From: Candidatus Cloacimonas acidaminovorans str. Evry
GTDB lineage: Bacteria; Cloacimonadota; Cloacimonadia; Cloacimonadales; Cloacimonadaceae
Assembly (NCBI RefSeq): GCF_000146065.2
Contig: NC_020449.1
Coordinates: 434,001-498,000, forward strand
DNA length: 64,000 nucleotides
Direction: 5' to 3'
Shown: in pieces, positions 34,800 to 38,048 of the stretch
How positions within the stretch are numbered: the first letter of the stretch is position 1
How the letters are laid out: the number at the start of each line of letters is the position of its first letter
Notes under the pieces: model-generated
What the model was told of the DNA's origin: nothing
The model's database searches: none
Seen by the model: only the letters and a program-made list of their open reading frames with translations
Program-made: the position numbers and the translations under genes

Positions 34800-34877
34800 T
34801 TCCTGCTGAAAAAGCTTGACGGAATATTTTAGGAATTACATAATGTATTTTGAAGATTGTTAAAGTGTGAGGAAAGA

Positions 34878-36131
34878 ATGAACGCCGATGTGATTATCAT
34901 TAATATCAGCCAGTTAGTTACTCTTGCCAATAATAGTAAACCACGCTACGGCAAAGAAATGGAAGAAAGTGCTATTATTACCGATGCGGGTATAGCCATA
35001 AAAGGTGGCAATATTATTGAAATAAACGACAGTAAAGCGATAGGAAACAAATATCTAACTTCCGAACTTATAGATGCCGAAGGGAAAATTGCTACTCCCG
35101 GTTTTGTGGATTGTCATACTCATCCCGTTTTTGTCCATACTCGCGAAGATGAATTTGCTATGCGTTTACAGGGAAAAAGTTATGTGGAAATAGCCAAAGC
35201 AGGAGGTGGCATTTTAAGCACAATTCAGACAACCAGAAATGCAGATGAGGATTTGCTTTTTGAATTGGCTAAAAAACGCATCCTGAAAATGATGCAGTTA
35301 GGGACTACAACCCTTGAGGCAAAAAGCGGTTACGGATTGAACACCCCAAGCGAATTGAAACAATTGCGGGTGATCAAACGCTTGCAGGAAGAACTCCCGA
35401 TTGATATTGTCCCTACTTTTTTGGGTGCCCATGAATTTCCCGAAGAATATAGAAATAATCATTCCGGTTATGTAGAACTCCTTTGTAAAGAAATGATTCC
35501 TGCTGTTGCGGAACAAGGAATAGCTGAATTTTGCGATATTTTTACAGAAGCACATACTTTTAATATTGAGGAATCGCGCCAAATACTTACCTGTGCAGGT
35601 GAACACGGACTCAAATTAAAAATGCATTGTGATGAGATTGAGCCCATTGGTGGTGCAGAACTTGCAGCGGAACTAAAATGTATATCAGCAGACCATTTGG
35701 GTTCTGCCAGCGAAACAGGAATTAAAGCACTCAAAAAAGCGGGAGTGATACCAGTTTTATTACCGGCAACTTTATTTTCCTTACAGAGCAAGACCTACGC
35801 TAATGCCCGTCTGATGATGGATTTGGGACTTCCTGTTGCCATAGCTACGGACTTTAATCCCGGAAGTTGTAACTGTGACAGTATGCAGTTTACTATGTCT
35901 CTTGCCTGTTTGCAAATGGGGTTAACTCCTTCCTCTGCTTTATGTGCAGCCACTTTAAATTCTGCTTATGCGCTGGATAGAGGCAATCAAATTGGCTCTT
36001 TGGAGGCAGGAAAAAAGGCAGATATTGTTCTTTGGGATATTCCGGGGATTAATTTTATTCCCTATCATTTGGGTTCTTCTTATGTTGAACGCGTGCTAAA
36101 ATGCGGAAAGACAATTTATAAGGCAACTTAA
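34878..36131 (+). CDS. hutI: Imidazolonepropionase
   Basis: The 417-residue amidohydrolase starts at ATG 34878 behind GAGGAAAG; an upstream TTG has no RBS. It has the metal pair in PGFVDCHTHPVFVH, LEAKSGYGLN, FLGAHEFPEEY, LKMHCDEIEPIGGAELA and the late metal Asp in VAIATDFNPGSCNCDSMQF. It hydrolyses imidazolonepropionate to N-formimino-glutamate in histidine breakdown. The other hut genes are not in this window. Histidine use fits an amino-acid fermenter. The stop is immediately followed by the start of the pseudokinase gene (0 nt). Confidence 0.94.
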   Translation: MNADVIIINISQLVTLANNSKPRYGKEMEESAIITDAGIAIKGGNIIEINDSKAIGNKYLTSELIDAEGKIATPGFVDCHTHPVFVHTREDEFAMRLQGKSYVEIAKAGGGILSTIQTTRNADEDLLFELAKKRILKMMQLGTTTLEAKSGYGLNTPSELKQLRVIKRLQEELPIDIVPTFLGAHEFPEEYRNNHSGYVELLCKEMIPAVAEQGIAEFCDIFTEAHTFNIEESRQILTCAGEHGLKLKMHCDEIEPIGGAELAAELKCISADHLGSASETGIKALKKAGVIPVLLPATLFSLQSKTYANARLMMDLGLPVAIATDFNPGSCNCDSMQFTMSLACLQMGLTPSSALCAATLNSAYALDRGNQIGSLEAGKKADIVLWDIPGINFIPYHLGSSYVERVLKCGKTIYKAT

Positions 36132-38048
36132 ATGCAGGAGACAACTCTAAACAGCTATCAGATAATTAAAACCGTTCACAGCTCCTTGAGGTTTTCTCTC
36201 TATCAAGCAAAACAAATGGAAACCGGACAAATAGTTTTGCTTAAAACCCCTGATACGCAACGACTTGACGATGAGCAACTGAAACAGGATTTGATGAATG
36301 AAGCCCATACCCACCTTAAACTTAGCCATCCCCAAATTAGAAAGGTCTACGAAATCAGAGAAGAAAAGGTAACTGCTTATTTGATTGGAGAATACATTGA
36401 AGGAATGTCTCTTTCTGCCTATCTGAAAATAAATTCCGATTCCCCACCCATTGAACTTACCCTTTCCTGGCTAAAGGAGCTTTTAGAGGCACTTTCCTAT
36501 GCCCATAAACAGGACTGTATCCATTTGAATTTAAATCCTTATAATCTCATTGTTGATAATACTAATTCTGTGCACATAATCGGTTTCGGGAAAAACCATG
36601 ATGCCTATAAAACTGCTAATGAAAAAAATGGTACCTATCATCCTCTTTTATACCTTGCTCCGGAACTTTTTCAAGCAGGAATTGCTCTTCCTCAATCCGA
36701 TCTATATTCTTTTGCTGTAATTGCTTATCAAATTCTTTGTGGAGTTGTTCCCTGGAGAATTGACCTGCAACTGAGCCCGGAAAAACAAAAACAGCAGTCA
36801 CTTTGCCGGGCTGTTATTATGCCGGAAATTTTGCATAAACAGGTTCCGGACTGGCTTTTTACCGCTTTACTGCAATGTTTGAAACTTGATCCTCATCAAC
36901 GCTTTGCCAATGCGGAAGAACTTATAACGGTATTTAACGAACAGGAAAATTGGCTGCCGAAAGAAGATGAAAAGGTGGAAAGCGTTCAGAAAGTTGAGAA
37001 AATTGAGAGTATTGAAGAGGTTGAGAAAATTGAAAAAGTTGAGAAGGTTGAGGAAACAGAAAAAAAGGAATTGCCAAATTCCCAAGCGGCAAGCTCTAAA
37101 ACAGAATTTGCCACTCCCAAATATCCTGCTCCCGAATCTTTCATTACCGAAATAAAAGAAACAAAAAAGCTGAAAAAGACCTTCAAAATCCTTATCTGGC
37201 TGTCTCTTATCATAATTCTGTTTATTATTATTAAGTACATTGCTTTTGGCAACAGACCCAAATTTACTTCCGTGGCAGATAGCACTCAAGTGGAAATTTC
37301 GGAAGAACCACTAAACGAAAATCTGCCTATAGCGATGGTTTTGGTTCCTGCAGATACTTTAGTGATGGGAAATATTTCTCCCGAAGCGGAAGATGATGAA
37401 TTTCCTCTTTTAACAATAGGCATTCCTGCCTTTTACATTAGTAAAAAGGAAATCAGCCAGGCAGAATGGATGATGGTTTTTTCTAATAATCCGGCTCACA
37501 GTAAAGATCCCGAACTGCCTGTGGAAAATGTTAATTTCTACGACATTATTGATTTCTGCAATCAGAAAAGTATTCTGGACGGTTTTGAGCCCTGCTACGA
37601 TTATTATGATGATGAAGTTGTGTGCAATTTTTCTGCTAATGGCTATCGTTTACCTACTGAAGCTGAATGGGAATTTGCTGCCAAAGGCGGAAAAAGAAAT
37701 GATTTCTTTGTCTATAGTGGCTCTGATAAGGCAGATGAAGTCGGTTGGTATAACGAAAATAGCGATGCACAAAGCCATCCTTCGGGACAAAAAAAACCTA
37801 ATCAGCTGGGAATTTACGATCTGAGCGGAAACATTTTTGAATGGGTGTGGAACTGGTATGTGCCTTACAGTTCACGCAATTATGACCCTTATAAGGGACC
37901 CGATAAAGGAATTGATAAAGTTATTAGAGGCGGTTCCTGGTATCATAATGCTTCTGAAATGAGAGTTACTAACCGCAATTTTGCCAAGCCCTACACTAAA
38001 AATGCCTATCTGGGCTTCCGCGTTGTAAGAACTTATAGCCCTCGTTAA
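36132..38048 (+). CDS. Pseudokinase fused to membrane helix and formylglycine-enzyme-like domain
   Basis: The 638-residue protein has a protein-kinase fold (about 5-270), a Glu/Lys/Val-rich linker (about 280-320), one membrane helix (about 350-370) and an FGE-sulfatase/SUMF1-like domain (about 390-638; VENVNFYDIIDFCNQKS, GYRLPTEAEWEFAAKGG, LSGNIFEWVWNWY, VIRGGSWYHNASEMRVTNR). The kinase keeps the VAIK-type lysine (K38) and the alpha-C Glu (E57) but the HRD motif is HLN (residues 131-133) and DFG is GFG (151-153), so catalytic and metal aspartates are missing. The FGE domain lacks the C-terminal redox cysteines. Both parts therefore look like binding modules. The gene directly follows hutI. 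Confidence 0.85.
   Translation: MQETTLNSYQIIKTVHSSLRFSLYQAKQMETGQIVLLKTPDTQRLDDEQLKQDLMNEAHTHLKLSHPQIRKVYEIREEKVTAYLIGEYIEGMSLSAYLKINSDSPPIELTLSWLKELLEALSYAHKQDCIHLNLNPYNLIVDNTNSVHIIGFGKNHDAYKTANEKNGTYHPLLYLAPELFQAGIALPQSDLYSFAVIAYQILCGVVPWRIDLQLSPEKQKQQSLCRAVIMPEILHKQVPDWLFTALLQCLKLDPHQRFANAEELITVFNEQENWLPKEDEKVESVQKVEKIESIEEVEKIEKVEKVEETEKKELPNSQAASSKTEFATPKYPAPESFITEIKETKKLKKTFKILIWLSLIIILFIIIKYIAFGNRPKFTSVADSTQVEISEEPLNENLPIAMVLVPADTLVMGNISPEAEDDEFPLLTIGIPAFYISKKEISQAEWMMVFSNNPAHSKDPELPVENVNFYDIIDFCNQKSILDGFEPCYDYYDDEVVCNFSANGYRLPTEAEWEFAAKGGKRNDFFVYSGSDKADEVGWYNENSDAQSHPSGQKKPNQLGIYDLSGNIFEWVWNWYVPYSSRNYDPYKGPDKGIDKVIRGGSWYHNASEMRVTNRNFAKPYTKNAYLGFRVVRTYSPR

Follow-up and report, generated by a model that had tools for sequence, protein, structure and literature searches.

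The open reading frame studied here lies within a window of 64,000 nucleotides, the whole stretch of DNA that was analysed, in the complete genome (2,246,820 bases) of Candidatus Cloacimonas acidaminovorans str. Evry. It encodes a pseudokinase-TM-FGE protein, hereafter PsK-A, whose parts follow in the order Hanks-type kinase fold, E/P/K-rich linker, one membrane helix and FGE/C-type-lectin (CLec)-fold domain, and it begins where the gene for imidazolonepropionase ends:

34857..36131, forward strand: hutI, imidazolonepropionase (TIGR01224), its stop codon abutting the PsK-A ATG
36132..38048, forward strand: whole PsK-A frame, 638 aa, ATG at 36132-36134
36153..36947, forward strand: pseudokinase domain, PknB-like fold, predicted cytoplasmic (residues 8-272; Pfam, AlphaFold2, Foldseek)
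36177..36194, forward strand: replaced glycine loop HSSLRF (residues 16-21)
36243..36245, forward strand: K38, the beta3 (VAIK) lysine, kept in 39/39 orthologues
36522..36545, forward strand: catalytic loop HLNLNPYN (residues 131-138), with Asn for the HRD Asp and Asn for the catalytic Lys
36582..36593, forward strand: GFGK replacing DFG-I/V (residues 151-154; G151 in 38/39, K154 in 37/39)
36954..37157, forward strand: disordered E/P/K-rich linker (residues 275-342; pLDDT <50; dN/dS 0.15-0.64)
37167..37244, forward strand: single TM helix (residues about 346-371; from hydrophobicity, N-terminal side more basic)
37332..38030, forward strand: FGE/CLec-fold domain, predicted extracytoplasmic (residues 401-633; Pfam PF03781 E 1.2e-41; TvpA 2y3c E 2.2e-37)
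37926..37976, forward strand: RGGSWYHNASEMRVTNR, where FGE enzymes have their active-site Cys pair, here without Cys (alignment with human FGE chains in the PDB)

The kinase part is recognized by the Pfam Pkinase profile over residues 23-262 (E 7.8e-33), and when modelled alone with AlphaFold2 (pLDDT 92, pTM 0.90) it found M. tuberculosis PknB (6i2p, E 2.3e-19) as its best solved match in Foldseek. Profile and modelled bilobal fold together thus place it in the Hanks-type protein-kinase superfamily. The full-length model, built with 35 orthologues, shows confident kinase and FGE domains, a disordered segment at 275-342 and a helix at 340-371, and leaves the mutual arrangement of the two domains unpredicted (pTM 0.49); against the PDB it matched kinases only, among the matches listed. 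Structure and topology prediction agree with the layout originally proposed from the sequence, a kinase and an FGE-like domain joined across one membrane helix (the only hydrophobic helix, at about 346-371), and so the models support a single-helix receptor architecture. Hydrophobicity and a modest bias in net charge around the helix (mean +1.5 on the N side versus +0.5 on the C side) predict that the FGE domain lies outside the cytoplasm. The linker between kinase and helix is disordered and length-variable, with a kinase-to-helix spacing of 77-258 aa among orthologues, as expected of a tether.

The catalytic motifs read as the original prediction had them: the beta3 Lys (K38, in VLLK) and alpha-C Glu (E57) are present, HRD has become H131-L132-N133 and DFG has become G151-F152-G153. 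The damage extends to the glycine loop, where all three glycines are gone (H16, S18, F21), and to the catalytic-loop Lys, replaced by N135. In an alignment of 39 orthologues, PsK-A itself included, neither the HRD Asp nor the catalytic Lys nor the DFG Asp occurs even once (0/39 each), and the beta3 Lys, HRD His, APE Glu, E178 and R257 are each found in 39/39, with G151 (38/39), K154 (37/39), alpha-C Glu (35/39) and R/K19 (27/39) following. As to whether HLN and GFG are fixed, G151 nearly is and HLN is not, since its Asp position holds Asn in 30, Gln in 3 and other residues in 6 orthologues, and its Arg position is variable. The glycine loop of the family reads H-x-S-R-R-[FYH], versus GxGGMG in active relatives, with a bulky aromatic or His (F/Y/H) at the third glycine in all 39. 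By sequence, then, PsK-A is a bacterial pseudokinase whose loss of catalytic motifs is fixed in its family, and canonical Mg-ATP binding seems unlikely because both the glycine loop and the DFG Asp are lost.

Lost catalytic motifs might also mark a decaying kinase gene, a reading that we reject as extremely improbable: the same losses and intact frames recur across ten genera and throughout the 39 orthologues, with dN/dS about 0.1. As the original prediction held, this is a conserved pseudokinase and not a degenerate copy, no orthologue in the position behind hutI having an intact HRD or DFG (0/39 each). A simple counting method was applied to nine PsK-A pairs, and the seven with usable estimates gave dN/dS of 0.10-0.13 for the kinase domain, 0.06-0.11 for the FGE domain and 0.15-0.64 for the linker, values that point to purifying selection on the dead kinase domain. 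A profile of this domain scored high in 47/50 Cloacimonadaceae genomes (two of these as fragments) and did not do so outside the family, other kinases of the phylum scoring clearly lower. The three Cloacimonadaceae genomes without PsK-A are incomplete (59%, 80% and 69%) and gave no match to hutI, and a single-protein scan of named genomes with PsK-A returned one relative, a Cloacimonetes MAG. We also set aside a defence-system kinase, the PADLOC matches (PD-T4-6, MAD6) covering the generic kinase part only.

The upstream gene is a secure hutI (TIGR01224, 465.5 bits versus a cut-off of 298), and its coupling to PsK-A is, as first described, exactly 0 nt (stop codon 36129-36131, ATG 36132-36134). 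This coupling is family-wide: in 39/41 PsK-A loci hutI is the immediate upstream gene, either overlapping the frame or separated from it by no more than tens of bases, contig ends cut the remaining two, and the order is kept over orthologues down to about 35% identity. Beyond the family it disappears; across 20 genomes belonging to the phylum's other families, neither a kinase nor an FGE gene was found in the sequence following hutI (three of the 20 offered little or no downstream sequence), and hutI is present through most of the phylum without PsK-A as its neighbour. Since hutI has other neighbours outside the family, the PsK-A gene probably entered behind it once, at the base of Cloacimonadaceae. 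For the same reason, and because hutH and hutU sit elsewhere in the genome, far from the hutI-PsK-A pair, the coupling does not show a function in histidine degradation, and we rejected the reading of PsK-A as a simple histidine-operon gene. A HutI-specific role, with the pseudokinase anchoring or regulating imidazolonepropionase at the membrane, would fit two findings: hutI immediately precedes PsK-A wherever the contig extends far enough, and both genes are jointly absent from the same incomplete genomes. We nevertheless consider it very unlikely, given that the kept adjacency may reflect only shared transcription or translational coupling, that hutH and hutU are distant, that most of the phylum has hutI without this neighbour, and that the paralogue PsK-B, described below, sits behind an ileS-like gene instead.

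At the other end of the protein, PF03781 (FGE-sulfatase; 143.5 bits versus a curated cut-off of 23.3) assigns the C-terminal domain to the FGE/CLec-fold family. The segment RGGSWYHNASEMRVTNR, which lines up with the C..C region of human FGE, contains no Cys, a Cys occurs in the last 43 alignment columns of only 1/39 orthologues, and a formylglycine-generating enzyme is therefore rejected, its active-site Cys pair being absent. The description of this domain as cysteine-less thus holds for the active site and fails elsewhere, as Cys occurs at 476 (39/39), 488 (29/39) and 498 (38/39). Its significance had also been overstated: the closest solved relative is the Treponema variable protein TvpA (2y3c, E 2.2e-37), with the best FGE enzyme at 1.9e-15, and because the nearest relative is TvpA and not an FGE enzyme, the missing pair is nothing unusual for the fold. 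TvpA shares the FCN and PCY cysteines with PsK-A. It is a retroelement-diversified variable protein, whereas the PsK-A gene has no similarity to the template repeat of its genome's DGR (best local score 22, within the shuffled range, maximum 26), so we rejected PsK-A as a DGR target or variable protein. Within the CLec fold, which serves DGR variable proteins as their conserved scaffold, FGE domains are described as one subtype (PMC10907252; PMC6328139), and this kinship makes ligand binding, by analogy, the default inference for the PsK-A domain and not a demonstrated role.

Two further loci of this genome carry domains of the same kind. The DGR in L079 (G000:C1:1386000-1396000) has an FGE/CLec target at about 7132-6050 on the reverse strand, VR at 6175-6064, RT at about 4950-3980 and TR at 3929-3818; of the 13 compared sites at which TR and VR disagree, 12 are adenines in TR, and in this genome adenine changes (AAA to TGA) give a stop codon in the target frame. 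L001 (G000:C1 around 360955-361686) encodes 714 aa with an apparently caspase-like N-terminal region, assigned by eye, and an FGE-like domain as in PsK-A, and it resembles the orthocaspase-CLec fusions described in cyanobacteria (PMC7517822).

The FGE domain also bears on the main rival to the sensing or docking function that we propose below, namely a scaffold that senses nothing, its FGE domain anchored to an envelope complex and its pseudokinase permanently tethering a cytoplasmic partner. Such a protein would be analogous to the FGE-like PorK/GldK of the type IX secretion ring and to the EssB/YukC or MviN tethers, the known bacterial membrane pseudokinases being scaffolds; the PsK-A domain does resemble GldK/PorK (NCBIfam TIGR03525 E 1.5e-25, below cut-off; PDB PorK chains about 1e-12), and it is the most conserved part of the protein, as a protein interface would be. 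The GldK match is, however, far under its curated cut-off (90 versus 350 bits), and TvpA remains the nearest solved relative, so that we regard the scaffold as somewhat unlikely though deserving serious consideration.

The nearest sisters of PsK-A retain what it has lost. All 24 other aligned Cloacimonadaceae kinases keep the HRD Asp, Lys and DFG Asp, and 14 of them also carry an FGE domain, most with a TM helix. (One intact kinase, L114, printed HAQLKHTN in the motif search; the alignment counts its Asp as present, the search having probably hit an earlier stretch.) In the kinase tree, the PsK-A family forms one clade (support 100/99) sister to the intact group, from which we infer, given a midpoint root, that the dead form probably derived from intact kinase-FGE receptors. 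In L117 (G036:C113), L130 (G087:C118) and L131 (G023:C6), two to four kinase genes stand in tandem, most of them FGE-fused and retaining HRD-, HKD- or HED-type and DFG motifs in intact form. Besides PsK-A and its paralogue PsK-B, the only kinase found in this genome, that of PsK-A, has HKD and DYG motifs in a 1,834-codon frame.

A second dead receptor, the paralogue PsK-B, is encoded in the same genome:

G000:C1:651189-653195, reverse strand: PsK-B (L080), zinc ribbon-pseudokinase-TM-FGE

Like PsK-A, PsK-B is a dead kinase-TM-FGE protein present across most of Cloacimonadaceae, with the beta3 Lys kept in 15/16 and the HRD and DFG motifs lost in 16/16 examined. It differs in its N-terminal zinc ribbon, in the replacements of its catalytic loop and DFG (SSG, SSA or similar) and in its place behind an ileS-like gene. 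In the tree it is a clade separate from PsK-A, on a long branch of uncertain placement, and since it is missing from two near-complete genomes that have PsK-A (G007, G008), the two are not obligate partners. PsK-B, judged together with its orthologues (L183-L202), seemingly starts at a non-standard codon: in 4/15 loci (L183, L185, L186, L195) no ATG, GTG or TTG separates the zinc ribbon from the in-frame stop preceding it, and a GGAGG-like site precedes an ATT, ATA or ATC codon by about 10 nt, the others having ATG there or nearby. Initiation of this type is known for infC, and AUU/AUA initiation of PsK-B is possible.

That a kinase-dead protein has been kept across the whole of Cloacimonadaceae suggests not a broken gene but, probably, a protein that senses or docks without enzymatic activity. 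We propose, as the best-supported reading and with confidence that is evenly balanced, that PsK-A serves as a bitopic pseudoreceptor kinase in the inner membrane, sensing or docking without phosphotransfer. The FGE domain, outside the cytoplasm, would bind a ligand or envelope protein; this binding, or clustering through the PknB-like N-lobe, would alter how the cytoplasmic pseudokinase is shaped or oligomerized, and the pseudokinase would then dock or release a cytoplasmic partner with no transfer of phosphate. The fixed Lys/Arg residues round the old nucleotide pocket (K38, K154, R/K19, R20), together with the family-specific W159, P171 and R70, may form a rebuilt pocket and docking surface. 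Against a sensor, the product of its constant neighbour hutI is a metabolic enzyme that has no obvious part in signalling.

The same pocket could instead serve unusual catalysis or metal-independent nucleotide binding, as in HER3- and CASK-like pseudokinases, or a SidJ-like non-kinase transfer. K38 (39/39) and the alpha-C Glu (35/39) would suit such an activity, as would the extra basic K154 (37/39) and R/K19 (27/39) around the pocket; PMC12599244 describes metal-free ATP binding via extra basic residues in ULK4 and records it as a proposal for DLHK kinases. We judge it unlikely, because the HRD Asp, catalytic Lys, DFG Asp and glycine loop are all gone and F/Y/H stands in place of the third glycine in all 39. 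A bolder version of the sensor or docking proposal, which we offer as speculative and rather doubtful, is that PsK-A and PsK-B are two separately derived, conserved TM pseudokinase-CLec receptors with pockets rebuilt as basic metal-independent ligand or nucleotide sensors, and thus a transmembrane signalling class wholly without phosphotransfer.

Bacterial pseudokinases are largely unstudied, and none of the seven families named in PMC12599244 is described with the combination found in PsK-A. A dead receptor fixed in a family and its catalytically intact counterparts, built alike and found in related genomes, make a clean pair, with which to ask what a kinase domain does once phosphorylation is lost; the question is directly testable, as the CLec/FGE domain and dead kinase are small, confidently modelled and probably separately expressible.

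Compared with those families by their descriptions, PsK-A fits none, as far as its motifs and domains can tell. GLW pseudokinases have GLW for HRD and Leu/Trp for the beta3 Lys, versus H-x-N in most PsK-A orthologues and K38 in 39/39; DYD pseudokinases have Arg for the beta3 Lys, no alpha-C Glu and a DYD motif, versus K38 in 39/39, Glu in 35/39 and GFG. CP1 has a COG3899 domain and no TM, and DLHK retains the HRD Asp, also with no TM; PsK-A has a TM helix, no such domain in the Pfam scan and no HRD Asp. ActPs3 (MviN) shows complete degradation of the catalytic motifs with an activation-loop deletion, and ActPs1 shows substitutions in all three catalytic residues, ActPs1 and ActPs2 being mainly actinobacterial (all PMC12599244). 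PsK-A has lost HRD and DFG and kept the beta3 Lys (39/39), in a host from Cloacimonadota, and because this Lys is kept, membership of ActPs1-3 seems unlikely. MviN and EssB/YukC are, like PsK-A, membrane-linked dead kinase domains, with non-catalytic roles as scaffolds (PMC12599244); they have other partner domains, whereas in PsK-A the beta3 Lys persists and the partner is an FGE/CLec domain.

In architecture the nearest parallels are kinase fusions. CLec domains are fused to Ser/Thr kinases in cyanobacteria, where a ligand-binding role has been proposed (PMC7517822), and the cyanobacterial DGR-associated kinases and Chlamydia Pkn1 share with PsK-A an N-terminal Hanks-type kinase and a C-terminal FGE/CLec domain (PMC7517822; PMC3581485), as do intact-motif proteins with a TM helix in Cloacimonadaceae itself. 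The fusion is therefore already known, and PsK-A differs from these proteins in having lost all catalytic motifs, in being vertically inherited and not DGR-diversified, and in standing always behind hutI; what sets it apart is that catalysis has been lost, and the loss fixed, in a receptor passed on vertically.
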